From IMG/VR virus record IMGVR_UViG_3300032278_000091, positions 1 through 28,100 of that record: 28,100 nt of DNA, one strand, 5' to 3'. Made by a program: the position numbers and the translations under genes. The notes beneath the pieces were generated by a model. It worked only from the letters and a program-made list of their open reading frames with translations, did no database searches and had not been told where the DNA came from. The DNA comes from a virus. Below are positions 15,759-25,273 of this stretch, piece by piece (positions within the stretch are counted from its first letter, which is position 1; each line of letters begins with the position of its first letter).

Positions 15759-16952
15759 ATGCTTTTTCAAATATTAGACGAAAAAAGAAACTGCCCTCTT
15801 GTGTATCATAGCAATCGGCTAACTAACAAACCTTTGCCGAAGTCCAAAGAAGAACTAAGAACGTGGTCGTATGGAGATTTTCTCGGCGATAAGCCAGTTC
15901 AATATGCTCAATTTTATTGTGGGGGTCGGACAATTGATGAGGTTTGCCCGGATCTTATGTTGGATGAGTGGCAGGCGGTGCGTAAAAAGCTTAAAGCATT
16001 TTACCGTTCAGTGCGCGAAGCGAAGTTAAACTTAGATGAACATTGTTTTTACGATATGGTACCGGAACAATTTTTGTTAGATTATTGTGCGATCAAAAAT
16101 AAAATAACCCAATATATTTTTAATGTATACGAAAAGCCAGCAAATTATGATTTTCTTGTGAATCTTAAAAAGATCTCGTATGAAATAAGCAAGCGGAAAT
16201 TAGATTTAGACTTGAGTACTTTAACCCCTCGCATGCATGAGTATAGGGTTCGACAGTTTGCTAAGAAAGTAAAAAAATCAAACCCTCAAATACAATATAA
16301 TATATTTGGCAGCAAAACAGGTAGGCTAACAACTTTAAAAGGTTCCTTTCCAATCTTGACTATGGACAAGTCATTTCGAAAAATCATTAAACCAAAAAAC
16401 GATTGGTTTGTTGAGTTTGATTTTAATGCTGCTGAACTTCGAGTACTGCTGGGCCTTTTGGGAAAGGAACAGCCGCAAGAAGACATCCATACGTGGAATG
16501 CTAAGAATGTATATCATGATTCGGTGACAAGAGAGGAGGCAAAGAAAAGAATCTTTGCTTGGCTGTACAACCCCGAGTCACAAGACAAACTTTCCAGCAA
16601 ATCCTATGATAGAGGCTTGATATTGAAGTCTCACTGGGATGGGGGCAAAGTACACACCATTTACAACAGAACTATCGAAGCTGACGAATATCACGCTCTC
16701 AACTACACCATTCAATCAACTGCGGCAGACTTATTCTGTACTCAGATGCTTAAGGTCTGGGAAAAGATAAAAACTAGCAATTCTCACATCGCCTTCTGCA
16801 TTCATGATTCTTTAATTATTGATTTTTCTGAAAAAGATATGAATATTTTGTTAGACTTGAAAAGAACTTTTTCGGAGACAGACTTAGGAAATTTTATGGT
16901 TGGAGTCAAAGTGGGAAAAAGTTTCGGAGAAATGAAAGAGTTGCAGCTGTAA
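15759..16952 (+). CDS. Family A DNA polymerase, polymerase domain only
   Basis: This 397-residue protein carries the motifs of the Pol I polymerase domain: 'SKTGRL' (185-190); motif A 'FDFNAAELRVL' with the metal-binding Asp221 and Glu226; motif B in the O-helix with R258, K262, F266 and Y270 at the standard four-residue spacing; 'IQSTAAD' (318-324); and motif C 'HDS' (His349-Asp350). The usual Gly after the O-helix Tyr is Asn. There is no room for a 3'-5' or 5'-3' exonuclease domain; the first about 180 residues are thumb-like. It would extend primers in phage replication, with the 5' nuclease supplied by the separate gene at 22376. T4 uses a family B enzyme instead. Rhodothermus phage RM378 is reported, from memory, to have a similarly split family A polymerase. 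No ribosome site is evident, so it may depend on coupling to the preceding gene. Confidence 0.88.
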   Translation: MLFQILDEKRNCPLVYHSNRLTNKPLPKSKEELRTWSYGDFLGDKPVQYAQFYCGGRTIDEVCPDLMLDEWQAVRKKLKAFYRSVREAKLNLDEHCFYDMVPEQFLLDYCAIKNKITQYIFNVYEKPANYDFLVNLKKISYEISKRKLDLDLSTLTPRMHEYRVRQFAKKVKKSNPQIQYNIFGSKTGRLTTLKGSFPILTMDKSFRKIIKPKNDWFVEFDFNAAELRVLLGLLGKEQPQEDIHTWNAKNVYHDSVTREEAKKRIFAWLYNPESQDKLSSKSYDRGLILKSHWDGGKVHTIYNRTIEADEYHALNYTIQSTAADLFCTQMLKVWEKIKTSNSHIAFCIHDSLIIDFSEKDMNILLDLKRTFSETDLGNFMVGVKVGKSFGEMKELQL

Positions 16953-16964
16953 CTGGGAGAGAAG

Positions 16965-17816
16965 ATGAATGTCATAGGGGTCGGACAAGCTGGCTGCGCA
17001 ATTGCAGAAAAGTTTAAACAATATCCACAGTACAAAGTTTTTAAAATCGACACCGGTCTTAAGGGTAAGAACTGCTTTAACATGCCAAAGCAAAATCATC
17101 CGGAAAAGTACGAAGCAAAATGTCCCGTTGTCAAGGTGCGCACGTTCCTAAAGGGCGTACGCAAAAAAGTTTTATTTATCACAAGTTGCGGAAAAATTTC
17201 CGGGGCAAATTTGCGAGTTTTAGAGCACCTTAAAGCAAACCGGTGCAAGATTACAGTACTATACATAAAGCCGGAATTAGAGCTATTGAGCGAGCTACAA
17301 GCGCTCCAAGAGAGCGTCTCATGTGGCGTTCTTCAAGAATACGCACGTTCGGGCGTTTTTGAACGAATGTATATAATCTCAAACTCTTCAATGTCCAAAG
17401 TTATTGGTAACGTCCCGGTGCGAGAATATTATGAGAAAATTAATCAAGCAATCGCTTACACTTTTCACATGGTAAGTGTGTTTAAGAATACAAATTCAAT
17501 TATGGACACCTTTTCTGCGCAGATTCCTTCAACTCGCTTGTCGACACTTGGTATTGCCGACGCTGGCACCGGCGAAGAAAAAATGTTTTTTTCTCTTGAC
17601 AAAGCAAGAGATAAGAGGTATTATTATGCTGTACCTGAAGAGGTTTTGAATGAGGATGGCACGCTGTTGAACGAAATTAAAAATCAAGTAAAACAAAAAA
17701 TCATACCAGATGAGGCGAAAGCGATGTACGGCATTTACACCACTCAGTATAGCGGGTCTTTTGTTTTTTGTGAGGCTCATGCATCGATGGTGCAAAAAAA
17801 TGAAAAAATAATTTAA
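16965..17816 (+). CDS. Divergent tubulin/FtsZ-like protein
   Basis: This 283-residue protein starts with a nucleotide-binding loop, 'IGVGQAGCAIAEKF' (4-17), of the T1 type seen in FtsZ/TubZ. 'VFKIDTG' follows, as in FtsZ, where the next strand ends in INTD. Residues 69-82 (VLFITSCGKISGAN) occupy the place of the GGGTGTG tubulin signature loop but keep only part of it. 'NSIMDTF' (177-183) may be the catalytic T7 loop with Asp181. 'STLGIADAGTGEEKMFFSLDKA' (193-214) resembles the FtsZ G-x-A-x-G...A region. The C-terminus 'YGIYTTQYSGSFVFCEA' fits the tubulin C-terminal domain. Phage tubulins (PhuZ, TubZ) form filaments that position DNA. A polymer-forming role here is inference. It lies between the polymerase and gp32. 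Confidence 0.6.
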   Translation: MNVIGVGQAGCAIAEKFKQYPQYKVFKIDTGLKGKNCFNMPKQNHPEKYEAKCPVVKVRTFLKGVRKKVLFITSCGKISGANLRVLEHLKANRCKITVLYIKPELELLSELQALQESVSCGVLQEYARSGVFERMYIISNSSMSKVIGNVPVREYYEKINQAIAYTFHMVSVFKNTNSIMDTFSAQIPSTRLSTLGIADAGTGEEKMFFSLDKARDKRYYYAVPEEVLNEDGTLLNEIKNQVKQKIIPDEAKAMYGIYTTQYSGSFVFCEAHASMVQKNEKII

Positions 17817-17822
17817 AAAAGC

Positions 17823-17852
17823 TTGACAAGCTTGATAAAATTATGTTAAGAT
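17823..17852 (+). promoter_or_regulatory. Promoter of the gp32-like gene
   Basis: A perfect TTGACA (17823-17828) is followed after 18 bases by TAAGAT (17847-17852). The gap between the preceding stop and the ATG at 17911 is 94 bases, the longest in this module. The same 5' pattern occurs before hsp20 at 23341, with 16 of the first 20 bases identical. Confidence 0.75.
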
Positions 17853-17910: not shown

Positions 17911-18690
17911 ATGACTTTAAATATTGAAAAAATTAAAGATCGACTAGGAAAACTTAAGAATAACGGCAAGGAAGGTAACAAGTTGTTTTGGCGACCAACA
18001 ATCGCTTCTGAAACTACACTGCGCATTGTGCCAACATCGTGCGGCGACCCATTTCGGGACTTTTACTTCCACTATAACGTTGGCAAAGACAATTCAGGCT
18101 TCCTCTGTCCAAAGAAGAATTTTGGCGATGACTGTCCAGTTTGTGAACTAGCGACAAAGCTTTTTCGCGAAGGTGATGAAGGCAGCATTCGGGAAGCAAA
18201 AACTCTCTTCACTCGTCAGCGTTTTTTCGCGCCTGTCCTGGTGCGCGGAGAAGAAGACGAAGGCGTCCGAGTTTGGGGTTTTGGCAAGACTGCATATGAA
18301 ACCCTCCTTAGACTTGTACTAAACCCTGAATATGGTGACATCACAGATGTTGAAGATGGTACGGATCTGGTTATTGCATATGATAAACCAGCTGGCGCTT
18401 CGTTCCCCCAAACGAAGATTACACCACGCCGCCGAAATTCGCCCTTGTGCGAAGATGTGGATCCTAAGCGCTGTGCTGAGTTGCTTGAGAACATTCCTGA
18501 CTTTGATGGACTGTTCGAGCGCAAATCAGCAGAGGATGTCGCTGCAATGTTAGATCAATATTTGCTGGAAGACGAACCGGAAGAGAACTCTTCTCAAGTT
18601 GAAAAATATTCTGCAAAAGAAAATTCGGAAACTAAAAGTTCGGAAACTAAAAGTGTTGATAAGGCATTCGAAGAATTGATGGGCGCCTAA
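17911..18690 (+). CDS. gp32-like single-stranded DNA-binding protein
   Basis: This 259-residue protein has the zinc-binding pattern of T4 gp32: His54, Cys66, Cys75 and Cys78 in 'HYNVG...GFLCPKKNFGDDCPVC'. Next comes an OB-fold-like part rich in aromatic and basic residues ('VRVWGFGKTAYETLLRLV'). The C-terminal tail is acidic and Ser-rich and ends in 'KAFEELMGA', as expected for the partner-binding tail of gp32. It coats ssDNA and recruits polymerase, UvsX and helicase. It has its own promoter and an AAGGAG ribosome site, and a strong hairpin after its stop. The tail contains a tandem duplication (18624-18653). It is slightly shorter than T4 gp32 (301 residues). Confidence 0.9.
   Translation: MTLNIEKIKDRLGKLKNNGKEGNKLFWRPTIASETTLRIVPTSCGDPFRDFYFHYNVGKDNSGFLCPKKNFGDDCPVCELATKLFREGDEGSIREAKTLFTRQRFFAPVLVRGEEDEGVRVWGFGKTAYETLLRLVLNPEYGDITDVEDGTDLVIAYDKPAGASFPQTKITPRRRNSPLCEDVDPKRCAELLENIPDFDGLFERKSAEDVAAMLDQYLLEDEPEENSSQVEKYSAKENSETKSSETKSVDKAFEELMGA
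18624..18653 (+). repeat. Two tandem 15-bp copies in the gp32 tail
   Basis: TTCGGAAACTAAAAG occurs twice head to tail (18624-18638 and 18639-18653), encoding a duplicated SETK-type pentapeptide (S-E-T-K-S) in the flexible linker before the acidic tip. The perfect identity suggests a recent slippage duplication. Confidence 0.9.
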
Positions 18691-18696
18691 CTTTTT

Positions 18697-18730
18697 GGGC
18701 GTGCGGTGTTTGCCGCACGCCCATTCTTTC
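18697..18730 (+). terminator. Hairpin after gp32-like gene
   Basis: GGGCGTGCGG (18697-18706) and CCGCACGCCC (18713-18722) form a perfect 10-bp GC-rich stem with a 6-base loop. ATTCTTTC follows, a weak U-tract. It lies 6 bases after the gp32 stop and 24 before the UvsX start. It probably attenuates or terminates gp32 transcription, or protects the abundant gp32 mRNA end, while allowing some read-through to UvsX. Confidence 0.75.
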
Positions 18731-18746
18731 ATAACAGGATAAAAAA

Positions 18747-19856
18747 ATGGCAAGAACTAGTAAACAGAAGACAGGAAAACTGTCTATCGCTGACATGCGC
18801 AGTATTATCAATAAGAAGGCTGGCATGAATGTTGCGCACAATTTAAATGAAGACAGCCCAACCGTTGTTAAGGATTGGATTCCAACCGGTTCTCGATGGC
18901 TTGACTCAATTGTGTGCCGCGGCAAACTCGCGGGCATCCCGATAGGGAAAATCACAGAAATTGCTGGACTGGAATCAACGGGCAAATCATACATGGCTGC
19001 GCAGGTTGCAGCAAGCGCTCAAAAAATGGGCATCGACGTTATCTACTTTGATTCAGAGTCCGCTATTGACCCGGGCTTTCTAGAAAAGGCGGGTTGTGAC
19101 GTTGATAAGGTACTATACGTTCAAGCACAATCGGTTGAGTTTGTGCTAGAGACCATTGAAGATTTGTTGTCAGCGAATGATAACAAAATGCTTTTCATTT
19201 GGGATTCTCTCGCTTTAACTCCCGCCGTTTCGGACGTTGAAGGGGACTTTAACCCTCTGTCTTCAATGGCAGTTAAAGCAAGAATCTTAGCAAAGGGTAT
19301 GTCTAAACTAACTGTGCCGATTGCAAATAGCCAATCAACGTTTTTGGTTTTGAATCAGCTTAAAACAAACATTACAAGATCCCCGTCCGAAACACTAACA
19401 ACGCCATATATGACCCCGGGCGGCAAGGCAATGATTTATGCTTATTCTTTGCGAATTTGGCTAACCGGCCGGAAAGCAAAAAGCTCATTCGTGTTGGATG
19501 ATAAAGGCTTTAGAATTGGTTCAGAAGTTAAAGTAAAGCTTGAAAAGAGCCGCTTTGGCACCCAAGGCCGCCAATGCAATTTTAAGATTCTCTGGGGAGG
19601 TGAAGTCGGTGTACAAGACGAAGAAAGTTGGCTGGATGCGATTAAAGGCTCGCAATCTCTATCTAACAGTGGCGCATGGTTTGCGCTTGATTATGGCGAT
19701 GGCACGTCCGACAAGTTTCAAACAGCGGGTTGGAAAAAGAAACTTGAAGAACCTAAATTTAGAAAACGAGTTTTAGACGTCATGGACGAAGAGGTCATCA
19801 TGAAGTTCGATAAACGAATTGGCAACGCCGAAGAGTTTTACGAGGAAGAAGAATGA
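18747..19856 (+). CDS. uvsX: UvsX/RecA-like recombinase
   Basis: This 369-residue protein (T4 UvsX has 391) has a RecA core. The Walker A motif is 'GLESTGKS' (74-81). The strand/Glu region 'IYFDSESAIDP' follows, and the Walker B-like 'MLFIWDSLA' lies near residue 150. The DNA-binding loop region is followed by 'FLVLNQLKTNI' and 'MTPGGKAMIYAYSLRIWLT', typical of RecA/UvsX. The C-terminus is acidic (EEFYEEEE), as in UvsX. It forms filaments on ssDNA with gp32 to drive strand exchange, recombination-dependent replication and repair. The next gene starts inside its stop codon (ATGA), so the two are translationally coupled. Confidence 0.92.
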   Translation: MARTSKQKTGKLSIADMRSIINKKAGMNVAHNLNEDSPTVVKDWIPTGSRWLDSIVCRGKLAGIPIGKITEIAGLESTGKSYMAAQVAASAQKMGIDVIYFDSESAIDPGFLEKAGCDVDKVLYVQAQSVEFVLETIEDLLSANDNKMLFIWDSLALTPAVSDVEGDFNPLSSMAVKARILAKGMSKLTVPIANSQSTFLVLNQLKTNITRSPSETLTTPYMTPGGKAMIYAYSLRIWLTGRKAKSSFVLDDKGFRIGSEVKVKLEKSRFGTQGRQCNFKILWGGEVGVQDEESWLDAIKGSQSLSNSGAWFALDYGDGTSDKFQTAGWKKKLEEPKFRKRVLDVMDEEVIMKFDKRIGNAEEFYEEEE

Positions 19857-20890
19857 ACAACGTTAACGTCATTAATATTAAAAGGAAATATAGAAAAACA
19901 ATGAAGCAAAAATATCTCAAAAATAAAAGTACAAGTCTGCCACCCGAAGTCAAAGTGTTGGGAATGGCTGATTTTTTAAAGCTGCCGCCTATCTATTGCC
20001 AAAGAAACACACTGGGTCGACTAAACCGGCAAAGTAAGGTGTTTGCGCAATCGCAAAATTTGCGGTCATTGCAGAACGTTCACGTTGTGCGATATATGAA
20101 AGACACTGCGCAACACAAAAAAGGTGTCGAGGTAATTGCGGACGGCAACACTCGACAGGAATATTGGCTAGCCGAAACAGCGTTAGGGAAGCCGATCCCG
20201 CCATGGGTTTTGGCAGTATACTATGAAGTTTGGTCGGATGCAGAGGCGCTAGCACTTTATAATACTTTTGATAACCCCGGCGCCGTAATGAACTCTGCAG
20301 ATAGAATTTATAGTGCATATAGAGCAGTCGGTGTTGCAGACAAGTTTAAATCCCATAAGATTCGTACGGGAACTGGCATCTCTAAATCGCTTCAATATGC
20401 AGCGCTGGGGCGCCCAAGTTACCCAAACTATAGTTCAAGAATTTCTGACTACACAAATATCATTGAAGATTATCAAGAAGAGCTTTTAGTGTTTGATGGG
20501 CTTCTTGCGCACCGCAAGGGCAAGCTCTCTAATCCACACGTTATTTGTAGCGCGCTGATGCTGCTTAAAAAGTACAAATCTAATCAGAAAAAGTACTCTA
20601 GACTGTTAGACGGCCTTAGAAAGTTGCAGCTGGAAGAGACAAGCGCCGGTTCTAAAGCCGAGGGCTATGATGGAATGACTTATTTAATGCTCAATCTGGC
20701 TAGCGCAGGCCAGCCAGACACTCTTTTTCCGCGCGGCCTTTCAACCACGCACCATGCTGATTGGGGCTTTCCAGCGCACCAGAATGCTATTTTGCTTTGT
20801 TTTGACCGGTGGCTTAATAACAGGACCATCTGTCGCAACCGTCTTCCAAAAAAACCGGTTTATGATTCTAAAAAGGGTTTTTGGGGCTAA
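19853..20890 (+). CDS. ParB/DGQHR-fold-like protein coupled to UvsX
   Basis: This 345-residue protein starts at the ATGA overlapping the UvsX stop. After a basic N-terminus it has 'LPPIYCQRNTLGR' (44-56), then 'NVHVVRYMKD' and 'VEVIADGNTRQEYWL' (92-106). The latter is the D-G-x-x-R segment of ParB/Srx-type nuclease or NTPase folds, here D97-G98-N-T-R101. 'LAVYYEVWSDAEALALYNTF' follows, which in ParB-like proteins completes the domain. The C-terminal half is helical and ends basic. Known ParB-fold phage proteins act in DNA binding, nicking or modification. Coupling to UvsX suggests a partner in recombination or DNA marking. Function is inferred; only the fold resemblance is visible. Confidence 0.5.
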   Translation: MNNVNVINIKRKYRKTMKQKYLKNKSTSLPPEVKVLGMADFLKLPPIYCQRNTLGRLNRQSKVFAQSQNLRSLQNVHVVRYMKDTAQHKKGVEVIADGNTRQEYWLAETALGKPIPPWVLAVYYEVWSDAEALALYNTFDNPGAVMNSADRIYSAYRAVGVADKFKSHKIRTGTGISKSLQYAALGRPSYPNYSSRISDYTNIIEDYQEELLVFDGLLAHRKGKLSNPHVICSALMLLKKYKSNQKKYSRLLDGLRKLQLEETSAGSKAEGYDGMTYLMLNLASAGQPDTLFPRGLSTTHHADWGFPAHQNAILLCFDRWLNNRTICRNRLPKKPVYDSKKGFWG

Positions 20891-20937: not shown

Positions 20938-21438
20938 ATGACTATTTGTATTTTATTTATTCTATCCAGCGGTTTTGGCTACGTAACGCCAAATTGCTAT
21001 TCTGACGGCGTATACGTAATGCCACTCGATGTTGTATATGTTTCACACATTCCAACATACTATGAAGGGGAATTGTTTTATTTCGCTCCGGAGGTCTATG
21101 TTAATTATTATCGACCATACTATCGTACGGTTTATTCTAATTACCGATATGTGCGTCGTCCAAATACGTACCGTCGTATTCCGAATTATCGATATCGACA
21201 CCACGCGAAGGCGCCTAGGTACCACCACTTTCGCGACCGACGCCATCCTCGGTCTGGCAATCGAGCACACAAGCACAGGTCAAATCGACACAAGCACAAG
21301 ATTAAGCCGACACGGCACCATAAGCGCCCCAAGGCAAAAAGGCCGACACGACGTCATAAGCGCCCCAAGATGAATTCTCGTCGCCCACAAAATAACAACA
21401 AGCAGCGCTCTCGTCGATCACCGCGACGTCGCAGGTAG
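20938..21438 (+). CDS. Exported, Tyr-rich then extremely Arg/His/Lys-rich protein
   Basis: This 166-residue protein has a clear AAAGGAG. It opens with a short hydrophobic signal-like stretch (ICILFILSSGFGYV). A Tyr-rich, fairly neutral part follows (about 20-75) and then a tail of about 90 residues made mostly of Arg, His, Lys and Pro with almost no acidic residues. It is protamine-like in composition. A 27-base imperfect repeat (21307-21369) builds part of the tail. If exported, the tail could bind LPS, peptidoglycan or nucleic acid in the envelope; if not, it could condense DNA or RNA. I recognise no family. Similar Tyr/Arg-rich secreted proteins occur in bacteria of the old delta-proteobacteria group, so host origin is possible. 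Confidence 0.6.
   Translation: MTICILFILSSGFGYVTPNCYSDGVYVMPLDVVYVSHIPTYYEGELFYFAPEVYVNYYRPYYRTVYSNYRYVRRPNTYRRIPNYRYRHHAKAPRYHHFRDRRHPRSGNRAHKHRSNRHKHKIKPTRHHKRPKAKRPTRRHKRPKMNSRRPQNNNKQRSRRSPRRRR
21307..21369 (+). repeat. Two 27-base imperfect direct repeats, period 36
   Basis: Copy one is 21307-21333 and copy two 21343-21369. Both begin CCGACACG and end CATAAGCGCCCCAAG, differing at three central bases. They encode the repeated (T)R-x-HKRPK units of the basic tail. Confidence 0.8.
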
Positions 21439-21447
21439 CCATTTAAA

Positions 21448-22389
21448 GTGCGCAAAACCCTAACCGTAACTGCAATTCTATTACTCTCGACGGTGTGCTA
21501 CGCGCGTACGAACGTTGAGTCGCGTACGCACATCGAACAGGGGGTATATAAGAAAACAGCCAATTTATGGAAGTGCATTTATAAAGCCTCAGTTGATCGC
21601 GGAGAAGCACCACCCGGCGTGAGTTATATTGGCCCATTGCCTGGAAACGGCGTTATAGACCACCAGCATAAGAACGGCTCAAGAAATAACATCATATTTG
21701 CCCCTTTAACGACGAGATTTAATGAGCCAATTGATTTGATTTTTTGGTATCATGGCCTAGGCGGCTTCGGTACCCGTGACTTCAAGCGTCGGCTATTATA
21801 TAATGCGAAAATCTTATCAGATGAGGGGAGAAATTTTATTTTAATTGTACCGGAAATGCCATGGTCGCAAAATACAAAAACCCCCCGCAGCCGTCAAGGT
21901 CGCGTTTTCCGAAAGCAGTCTTACGTTGTTAATTTTGTCTTGTCAGCCCTTCGAGTCATTGGTAGCTATCATGAGCCATCATATCTGCTTAGAACAAAAT
22001 GCACCTTATATAATGTGTGCGCACCGGCTGTGAACGACATTATATTAATAGGCCATAGCGCTGGCGGGTCGACTCTAAGCGCGCTATCTCGCTTTAAAGG
22101 AATGGACTGGTTGCGCCCGGCGCGAATCGTCTTTTCCGATGCGAGTTATGGTCGTTGGCTAGACAATACGTGGTCGCACTACAAGCGCCGTAATGGCACC
22201 TTGTTCGTCGTGTTAGCGCGCAAGTGGGATAAACCATACAAACAGCTGAAAAGGTTCTTAAAGAGCCGCTCAGTAGCGAAAAATAAATTTATAACCCTAA
22301 TAACTAACCGCTCTTTGCGCCATGGGGACATTGGAGACATGTCACTCTTGTACGCATATAGCTTAAAGAACCCTCATGAACAAAAATAA
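21448..22389 (+). CDS. Exported alpha/beta-hydrolase (esterase/depolymerase-like)
   Basis: This 313-residue protein starts with GTG, 9 bases after the previous stop. The N-terminus is a signal peptide (RKTLTVTAILLLSTVCYA, cleavage near residue 19). The oxyanion region 'WYHGLGGFG' (100-108) and the nucleophile elbow 'GHSAGG' (Ser204) are typical of alpha/beta hydrolases. Asp231 ('FSDASYG') and His292 ('LRHGDIGD') are suitable triad partners. The substrate is unknown; ester bonds in envelope lipids, acylated peptidoglycan or polysaccharide are candidates. With the preceding exported protein it forms a cassette inserted between replication genes. It overlaps the next gene by 14 bases. An esterase role in lysis or surface remodelling is inference. 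Confidence 0.75.
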   Translation: MRKTLTVTAILLLSTVCYARTNVESRTHIEQGVYKKTANLWKCIYKASVDRGEAPPGVSYIGPLPGNGVIDHQHKNGSRNNIIFAPLTTRFNEPIDLIFWYHGLGGFGTRDFKRRLLYNAKILSDEGRNFILIVPEMPWSQNTKTPRSRQGRVFRKQSYVVNFVLSALRVIGSYHEPSYLLRTKCTLYNVCAPAVNDIILIGHSAGGSTLSALSRFKGMDWLRPARIVFSDASYGRWLDNTWSHYKRRNGTLFVVLARKWDKPYKQLKRFLKSRSVAKNKFITLITNRSLRHGDIGDMSLLYAYSLKNPHEQK

Positions 22390-23344
22390 AAGACTTTTAA
22401 TTATCGATGCGCTAAATATGTATTTTAGAGCATATATTGTAAACCCCAGCTTATCGTTCAATGGCGATCCAATCGGTGGCTTGATGGGCTTTTTAAAGAT
22501 CCTGCAAAAACTCATTCGTGAAACGAAACCAGATGGAATTGTTATATGCTGGGATGGCGCCGGAGGATCTAAAAAAAGAAAATCGATCAACAAGAATTAT
22601 AAAGCTGGCCGTAAACCAATTCGCTTGAACCGCTCAATTCGTAATTTAAGCGAGCAAGAGGAGTTAAAGAATAAGGTTTGGCAACAGACAAGGCTGGTAG
22701 AGATGCTGAATGAGCTACCAATCATTCAACTTATGCTGGCCAGCGTCGAAGCAGATGATATCATCTCATGTGTTGCTAATCACAAGCTTTATGATTCTTG
22801 GCAAAAGGTGATTGTCTCTAGTGATAAGGACTTTTTTCAATTATGCGACGATACAACAGTGGTATTCCGACCAACTCAAAATGAAGTCTTGAACAAGCAC
22901 GCGATAGTGGAAAAGTTCGGAATTCACCCAACCAATTTCGCACTAGCCCGTGCGATAGTCGGAGACAAAAGCGACAATTTAGATGGCGTCCCGGGCGTGG
23001 GCATGCCAACAGTTGCAAAGAGGCTCCCCTTTCTAAAAGAAGAAAAAACTTTTACAATCGACGATGTTGTTGAATATTGCAAACAAGTCGAAAAGCCAGT
23101 TAATGCGTATTCAAATATTGTTGCCAACGTTGATGTTATCCACGAAAATTATAAATTAATGCAGCTCTATGTACCGTCAATTAGCGTACAGGGTCGACGT
23201 TTTATTAATGAGACCTTAAAGGATTTTAAACCTGAGTTTAATAAGACCGGCATACAAGCTATGATGATTGAAGATGGATTCGCAGTTTATAACTGGATGG
23301 AGATGTTTTCAATTTTTCGATCTTTTTGTTATAAAAGTACTTGA
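22376..23344 (+). CDS. FEN-1-like 5'-3' exonuclease (RNase H-type)
   Basis: This 322-residue protein has the metal-binding sites of 5' nucleases: Asp11 in 'LLIIDALN', 'CWDGAGG' (58-64), 'VEADDI' (124-129), 'SSDKDFF' (148-154) and 'GDKSDNLDGVPGVG' (196-209). The last is the helix-hairpin-helix DNA-binding motif. It is the stand-alone counterpart of the Pol I N-terminal domain and of T4 RNase H, removing RNA primers and flaps. The separate gene complements the exonuclease-free polymerase at 15759. Its start overlaps the hydrolase gene, and its last codons run into the hsp20 promoter (the stop lies within TTGACA). Confidence 0.9.
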   Translation: MNKNKRLLIIDALNMYFRAYIVNPSLSFNGDPIGGLMGFLKILQKLIRETKPDGIVICWDGAGGSKKRKSINKNYKAGRKPIRLNRSIRNLSEQEELKNKVWQQTRLVEMLNELPIIQLMLASVEADDIISCVANHKLYDSWQKVIVSSDKDFFQLCDDTTVVFRPTQNEVLNKHAIVEKFGIHPTNFALARAIVGDKSDNLDGVPGVGMPTVAKRLPFLKEEKTFTIDDVVEYCKQVEKPVNAYSNIVANVDVIHENYKLMQLYVPSISVQGRRFINETLKDFKPEFNKTGIQAMMIEDGFAVYNWMEMFSIFRSFCYKST

Positions 23345-24527: not shown

Positions 24528-24707
24528 ATGAAGAAGATTGTTGTATTAATAGCCGGAATGATTTTTTGTGGTGGGTGCCACATTCCATATCCTTCTAGCG
24601 GCCGCAGGGTACTACAACCCTATGAAAGATACGAGGAAGTTTGCACCACGAAAGTAAATAAGAAAGGCGAAAAAGAAACTCGCTGCCGATGGGTTCGGTC
24701 AAGATGA
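24528..24707 (+). CDS. Small lipoprotein
   Basis: This 59-residue protein starts at the ATG at 24528, seven bases after AAAGGAG (24514-24520). The N-terminus 'MKKIVVLIAGMIFCGGC' is a lipoprotein signal with the acceptor Cys at residue 17; the F-C-G-G-C lipobox is slightly unusual. The mature part is short, with a Tyr/Arg-rich middle, one Cys pair in the C-terminal half and a basic end. It is the first of a run of lipoproteins, and its stop overlaps the next start (ATGA). Function unknown; anchoring in the outer membrane and a role in superinfection exclusion are possibilities. Confidence 0.7.
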   Translation: MKKIVVLIAGMIFCGGCHIPYPSSGRRVLQPYERYEEVCTTKVNKKGEKETRCRWVRSR

Positions 24708-25273
24708 AATGTTTAAATATGAGGCACCCCCTGCTTCTTTTTTCAATCTTTCTAGCGCTGGGGTGCTCGCAGCCAGATGATAGTCCGATTACGTGGACTG
24801 AGTGCGGCGGCAACATAGGAGACCACGCGTGCAATTTTTCTTTTATGGACCAAACAGGAAACGATTGGTCGCTATATAACCACCACGGCAGCATTATTGT
24901 GCTCGATTTTTCTGCGATGTGGTGTGACTATTGTAAGAAAGCCGCGGAAGTTGCGCAAGAGATTCAAAATACACATGAAAACGATGATGTCGTTTGGGTG
25001 ACAATTTTACTTCAAAATAATTACGGGCAACAGCCCACCTTGGAGAACCTTAACGAATGGGCATCTTCATTTGAAATGACGTCTTCCCCCGTTTTGTCAG
25101 GCGACGCTAGCATAATTGACCCCACCGCTCAAAAGGGTTATAACGTAACAACGTGGCCGGGCCTCGTCGTCATTGATAGAGATATGACAATCTCTCATGA
25201 GCTTAAGGGGTGGAACGAGATGCAAATTAAGTTTTGGTTAAAGCAACTTACAAAGAACAGAGAGGCGCGTTGA
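24704..25273 (+). CDS. Thioredoxin-like (TlpA/redoxin-type) lipoprotein
   Basis: This 189-residue protein starts at the ATGA overlapping the previous stop. The lipoprotein signal 'HPLLLFSIFLALGC' gives a lipidated Cys at residue 21. The mature part has a thioredoxin fold: 'SIIVLDFSAMWCDYCKKAAE' with the active site W-C-D-Y-C, then 'VVWVTILLQN', and a cis-Pro region 'VTTWPGLVVIDRD'. It should work in the periplasm as a thiol oxidoreductase, like TlpA/ResA/DsbE. The neighbours at 25292 and 26213 are Cys-rich lipoproteins and are obvious candidate substrates. A membrane-anchored thioredoxin is unusual in a phage. The domain call is firm; the physiological role is inference. Confidence 0.88.
   Translation: MKCLNMRHPLLLFSIFLALGCSQPDDSPITWTECGGNIGDHACNFSFMDQTGNDWSLYNHHGSIIVLDFSAMWCDYCKKAAEVAQEIQNTHENDDVVWVTILLQNNYGQQPTLENLNEWASSFEMTSSPVLSGDASIIDPTAQKGYNVTTWPGLVVIDRDMTISHELKGWNEMQIKFWLKQLTKNREAR

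Follow-up and report, generated by a model that had tools for sequence, protein, structure and literature searches.

The window analysed here, the whole stretch of viral DNA of 28,100 nucleotides, comprises an entire IMG/VR record (28.1 kb). A T4-type tail and baseplate region, with PHROG assignments to a baseplate hub, a baseplate wedge and a head-tail adaptor, is followed by a replication module. The sequence-only reading had placed a tubulin/FtsZ-like gene in this module, between a polymerase gene and an SSB gene, and both its exact position and its setting are confirmed (Table 1).

Table 1. Genes of the replication module and sequence features of the tubulin-fold gene; positions are those of the window, residues those of the 283-aa protein, and fractions give the number of family members that keep a residue.
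Feature	Position	Strand	Remarks
Short family-A DNA polymerase (polA)	15759..16952	+	Pfam 7.6e-18; 12 bp upstream of the tubulin-fold gene; conserved neighbour
Tubulin/FtsZ-fold protein gene	16965..17816	+	283 aa, ATG start; model pLDDT 90.7, fold matches, profile homology
T1-type loop GVGQAGCA, residues 5–12	16977..17000	+	G5 127/128, G7 128/128, G10 117/128, C11 111/128
Degenerate T4 loop TSCGKISGAN, residues 73–82	17181..17210	+	Aligned with FtsZ GGGTGSGAS
QEYARS, end of helix H5, residues 124–129	17334..17351	+	Q124 128/128, Y126 127/128, R128 128/128
N140, aligned with FtsZ N166 (guanine contact)	17382..17384	+	126/128; evidence from sequence only
N160 in H7, guanine-contact position	17442..17444	+	126/128; assigned by sequence alone
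T7 region, residues 175–190	17487..17534	+	No conserved acidic residue; includes Asp181 (17505–17507)
Sigma-70-like promoter	17823..17852	+	TTGACA, 18 nt, TAAGAT, TG before; between the tubulin-fold gene and SSB; consensus match only
gp32-type SSB	17911..18690	+	Pfam 4.1e-14; conserved downstream neighbour
UvsX-type recombinase	18747..19856	+	Next conserved replication-module gene after SSB

The family-A polymerase is only 397 aa long, and a separate 5′-3′ exonuclease-like gene is located at 22376–23344. A strong, terminator-like hairpin of 12 bp lies 3′ of the SSB gene, at 18696–18723. This hairpin and the sigma-70-like promoter that precedes SSB suggest that SSB forms a transcription unit of its own.

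The open reading frame is a real gene under strong constraint. A single-protein scan of IMG/VR returned 21 relatives with 33–82% identity, and a profile scan found at least 562 relatives in viral contigs. A dN/dS ratio of 0.04 separates the window gene from the relative with 82% identity, and the other measurable pairs of the family give 0.05–0.14, values that indicate purifying selection. The relatives and the low ratios together rule out a chance or non-coding reading frame.

Existing annotation does not reach the family. The 283-aa protein has no significant match in Pfam, PHROGs or NCBIfam, and neither Pfam Tubulin nor TIGR00065 (ftsZ) scores above cut-off for the protein or anywhere in the window. 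A tblastn search of 50,697 GenBank phage records gave no match, likewise with two divergent family members as queries. The sole match among 84,980 species genomes of GTDB is a piece of phage DNA in the WOR-3 MAG CP070664.1. The family is thus carried by phages and has next to no annotation. No description of it was found in the open-access literature, subscription papers and preprints being outside the scope of the search. A host link through the WOR-3 MAG was rejected. The phage piece borders on a 100-N scaffold gap, which cuts through UvsX, and is therefore a stray contig. At this place in the public genome (L224:4212–4311), the cut UvsX, SSB, the tubulin-fold gene and polA are set between N gaps of the bacterial MAG "chromosome", a scaffolding error.

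According to the AlphaFold2 model (21-sequence alignment; pTM 0.89), the 283-aa protein is a full-length tubulin/FtsZ fold. The model contains the two domains of the tubulin fold, with the central helix H7 at residues 152–174. The last strand (266–273) ends about ten residues before the C terminus, and no C-terminal linker or tail follows. The best 50 Foldseek matches in the PDB comprise FtsZ (E down to 2e-14, TM 0.65–0.73) and TubZ, and the top matches are all FtsZ with a TM of about 0.70. In the viral library, the best matches are a phage protein annotated as FtsZ (E 1.7e-12), two phage "cell division/tubulin" proteins and PhuZ (E 4.6e-6); the PhuZ of Noxifer is among the matches in this library. 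VIA-align gives Z scores of 25.2 for CetZ, 23.2 for TubZ, 22.6 for FtsZ and about 22 for tubulin, and the aligned ranges span residues 1–283. CetZ, an archaeal tubulin-like protein, can be superimposed with an rmsd of 2.9 over 259 residues, but it is a cellular protein with a longer chain and only 15% identity, and Z gaps of 2–3 between it and the others do not establish a nearer kinship. An identity as an NAD(P)-binding or other Rossmann protein was rejected, such folds appearing only far down the viral list with a TM of about 0.3. Another fold or an unrelated Rossmann family would have refuted the sequence-only reading; neither outcome occurred. A lone divergent member folded without an alignment reached a pLDDT of 45 and is uninformative.

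Profile comparisons reveal a distant homology. The family aligns with FtsZ (24 sequences) in hhalign with p values of 2.6e-5 to 3.6e-5, T1, T4 and N140 being in register, and with PhuZ (11 sequences) with p values of 2.8e-5 to 4.9e-5. Five neighbouring phage protein families, serving as controls, gave p values of 0.1–0.7. FtsZ and PhuZ align with each other at 2e-10. Thus, the family is further from FtsZ and from PhuZ than those two are from each other. Single-sequence searches are marginal, with scores of 0.0073 for Pfam Tubulin (2 of 21 members) and 0.015 for NCBIfam ftsZ (3 of 21). A direct sequence search of the PDB yielded no usable match, FtsZ appearing in register at an E value of 5.6. 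The PhuZ profile PHROG 4733 matched none of the 21 members and five divergent ones, while its control, phiKZ gp39, scored 4.6e-118. The gene is supported as the founder of its own deep phage branch of the tubulin/FtsZ superfamily. Kinship is claimed at the level of the superfamily, not with FtsZ or tubulin proper.

Residue conservation was counted over 128 family members. The T1-type loop noticed in the sequence, GVGQAG, is present at residues 5–10, and D29 at the end of the second strand is kept in 108 members. The segment TSCGKISGAN, formerly taken to replace the T4 loop, does occupy residues 73–82. However, the loop is degenerate and not simply replaced, since it keeps one glycine, a serine or threonine and often a second glycine. 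The family consensus is [GS]-[CSAG]-G-x-[IV]-S-[GAS]-[AC], in which G76 is found in 102 members, S79 in 110 (threonine in 9) and G80 in 76. The signature T4 loop of the FtsZ family proper, GGGTG[ST]G, is not met, and the PhuZ of phiKZ departs from it too (GGASGS).

The two guanine-contact asparagines, N140 and N160, are missing in the same two sequences and never singly, as expected for residues that share a ligand. In these two loci (L020:5995–6846 and L179:3919–4785) the gene is still in place, and the L020 protein also lacks the T1 glycines. Both proteins are probably nucleotide-free pseudo-tubulins. As the gene is kept without either asparagine, some lineages may manage without nucleotide binding.

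The T7 region differs from that of other superfamily members. Asp181, proposed earlier as part of a possible T7 loop, is present in the window protein, but it is not a family feature: the position is acidic in 31% of the 128 members, and the best column of T7 (about residues 174–190) is 61% acidic. In the controls, by contrast, the T7 acids are invariant, D210 and D213 being kept in 24 of 24 FtsZ sequences and D201 and D204 in 11 of 11 PhuZ sequences. The PhuZ control proteins are only 22–37% identical to that of phiKZ. For phage TubZ, a catalytic role of the T7 aspartate is established (PMC3678025). Most of the family has therefore probably lost canonical trans-activated hydrolysis or has it in altered form. 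The T7 residues were paired on the basis of sequence profiles and of the predicted secondary structure, and acids at other places in the protein could take the catalytic part. Some members, the window protein with D181 included, may hydrolyse, since 31–61% carry an acid at 181 or 177. The earlier proposal of a new branch of phage cytoskeletal GTPase holds as far as a new branch of the superfamily is concerned, on the strength of the fold and the profiles. The lack of conserved T7 acids makes "GTPase" doubtful and renders its alternative, an inactive polymer scaffold, compatible with the data, though no more than compatible.

No counterpart of QEYARS, the most invariant motif of the family, is known from FtsZ or PhuZ. 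Beyond the nucleotide site, conservation is strongest at Q124, Y126, R128, H168, N171 and R191; N171 is asparagine in 120 of the 128 members and serine in the window protein. Judged from topology (the ends of H5 and H7 and the start of S7), these residues should be on the side opposite to the nucleotide, on the surface that would receive the next subunit.

In the loci that were fetched via the tubulin-fold gene, this gene is flanked in nearly every case by polA immediately upstream and by SSB downstream. A further 80 loci were fetched via UvsX to reduce bias, and the 76 new ones were analysed; the gene-chosen set includes some of the 80 records, so that the two sets are not fully independent. 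Wherever both polA and SSB are present in the UvsX-chosen loci, the tubulin-fold gene is located between them (43 of 43). It precedes SSB in 17 more, in which polA is cut off. The 15 UvsX-chosen loci that contain SSB and no tubulin-fold gene are short or truncated contigs without a detectable polA, most of them starting inside or just before SSB. polA and SSB are the only conserved immediate neighbours, and no small DNA-binding partner or TubR-like gene was found to adjoin the gene as a conserved feature. Gene order is weak evidence of function.

The phages concerned belong to a large, diverse and uncultured group of gp23-type myophages, in which the tubulin-fold gene is universal as far as checked. 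Four contigs carry the T4-type gp23 capsid gene, two of them long (190.6 and 184.2 kb). The chimallin profile of the nuclear shell, PHROG 4795, is absent from the 190.6- and 184.2-kb contigs and from eight shorter ones, all perhaps incomplete, and was found in the phiKZ control. The nearest cultured relatives by capsid (47–49%) are Flavobacterium phage immuto and Microcystis phage Mel-JY01. Their replication modules share the order of polA followed by SSB, recombinase, exonuclease and helicase, but a relative of the tubulin-fold protein is found nowhere in either genome, and unrelated small genes fill the slot. The idea that the two small genes between polA and SSB of immuto encode a split tubulin was rejected, as the sequences are unrelated and the immuto genome contains no family match. 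In some related phages without the tubulin-fold gene (L105:1346–1801, L107:5675–6064 and L106:7785–8174), the interval between polA and SSB holds a small conserved protein (HRKKESNTLYTINALN).

The closest phage precedent is PhuZ, the phage TubZ of Chimalliviridae (PHROG 4733; phiKZ gp39), which is likewise a phage-encoded tubulin fold and shows profile homology to the family (p 3e-5). In a 2025 survey of tailed phages, tubulin homologs set the nucleus-forming Chimalliviridae apart, and no more than a handful occurred in other phages (PMC11835377). PhuZ is a non-core, dispensable protein missing from 24% of chimalliviruses (PMC11724907), whereas the new gene is universal in its group as far as checked. 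The two differ further in that the T7 aspartates are conserved in PhuZ and not in the new family, in that the new chain lacks the C-terminal helix and acidic tail needed for polymerisation of PhuZ, and in that the new gene is fixed beside polA and SSB in phages with a T4-type gp23 capsid and no detected nuclear shell. FtsZ matches over the full chain, T1, T4 and N140 aligning in register, but at 12–16% identity; the degenerate T4, the absence of conserved T7 acids and the lack of the C-terminal linker and membrane-protein-binding tail set the new protein apart. TubZ of type III plasmid and prophage partition systems shares the fold (Z 23.2) and works on extrachromosomal DNA. Unlike TubZ, the new chain contains no C-terminal helix and tail, and no conserved TubR-like gene adjoins it.

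The reading that we favour, with as much doubt as confidence, is a scaffold of tubulin fold that binds GTP, probably forms filaments, has little or no canonical GTPase activity and works with phage DNA replication. The fold, the distant homology, the near-invariant T1 loop and guanine-contact asparagines, the lack of conserved T7 acids, the synteny and the purifying selection are computed results. Binding of GTP or GDP, polymerisation, hydrolysis rate, filament stability, localisation and the role in replication are all inferred, without experimental data. GTP, or GDP, would be bound in the usual pocket, and nucleotide-loaded subunits would stack head to tail via the usual longitudinal interface. 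The chemistry of this interface would be rewired, the T7 side presenting invariant Gln, Tyr, Arg and His residues in place of the catalytic Asp. The filaments are proposed to hydrolyse GTP slowly or never because the trans-acting acids are missing, and may form a fairly stable scaffold, not a dynamic spindle. Such a scaffold might gather or position phage DNA and replication proteins during infection, the genes of polA, SSB and UvsX lying in the same cluster. A bolder version, which we offer only tentatively and would sooner bet against, has the protein as a fixed part of the replication apparatus in a large set of myophages that are of ordinary size and form no phage nucleus, where a GTP-binding, non-hydrolysing filament or platform would organise polymerase, SSB and recombinase on replicating DNA.

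A dynamic cytoskeletal GTPase that moves or centres phage DNA in the manner of PhuZ or TubZ, with catalysis by Asp181 or other residues, would explain why the fold is that of TubZ and PhuZ and the nucleotide site is conserved. D181 lies near the position of the T7 acid, and an acid occurs at 177 or 181 in part of the family. Yet T7 acids that are invariant in FtsZ and in divergent PhuZ proteins are not kept in the family, and the chain ends after the last strand, without a PhuZ-like C-terminal helix and acidic tail. The absence of a conserved small DNA-binding partner next to the gene, and of a nuclear-shell gene from the longest contigs (phiKZ being the positive control), further makes this alternative unlikely.

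Polymerisation itself is questioned by a second alternative, in which the protein is a monomeric or dimeric replisome accessory that does not polymerise at all and whose tubulin fold serves only as a platform that senses nucleotide and binds polA or SSB. The immediate and invariant neighbourhood of the polA and SSB genes fits such a platform, as do the invariant surface motif QEYARS, unlike that of known tubulins, and the retention of the gene in two lineages that have lost the guanine contacts. We nevertheless regard it as quite improbable, because the well-studied superfamily members with a tubulin fold polymerise and the face that should be longitudinal, judging from topology, is strongly conserved.

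Phages are known to attack FtsZ (T7 Gp0.4, lambda Kil), FtsZ is among the closest folds, and a lack of the catalytic T7 acids in a subunit that binds nucleotide is what one would expect of a dominant-negative FtsZ, but a non-hydrolysing decoy that co-assembles with or caps host FtsZ to stop host cell division is equally hard to credit for a core gene that is fixed in the replication module of a diverse group and not a variable accessory, that is more distant from FtsZ than PhuZ is, unlike a mimic, and that is under strong purifying selection not typical of host-specific attack proteins.

Phage tubulins as such are known; what is new is a deep-branching family of the tubulin/FtsZ superfamily whose T4 and T7 are altered and which is a core component of a group of phages in which no nucleus was detected. 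The gene has diverged too far for current annotation to pick it up. Its presence throughout a large and diverse group of gp23-type myophages, as far as checked, in which nothing points to a phage nucleus, would take phage cytoskeletons far past the known case, and suggests that scaffolds of the tubulin type take part in phage replication well away from the phages that build a nucleus. The family also provides a natural test of what tubulin can do without the catalytic T7 acids.

The window contains several other genes of note downstream of the recombinase. Directly 3′ of UvsX, positions 19853–20890 encode a PHROG 2615 protein of unknown function with a ParB-like look (DGNTRQEYW), which is present in just one other of the loci. 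It is followed by a very basic, low-complexity protein of 166 aa (20938–21438) that is rich in Arg, Lys and His and histone-like in composition. An α/β-hydrolase-like protein with a GHSAGG motif and a signal-like N terminus is encoded at 21448–22389, inside the phage replication region. Further downstream, positions 24689–25273 encode a thioredoxin-type, lipoprotein-like protein (AMWCDYCKKA), possibly a host-redox gene.
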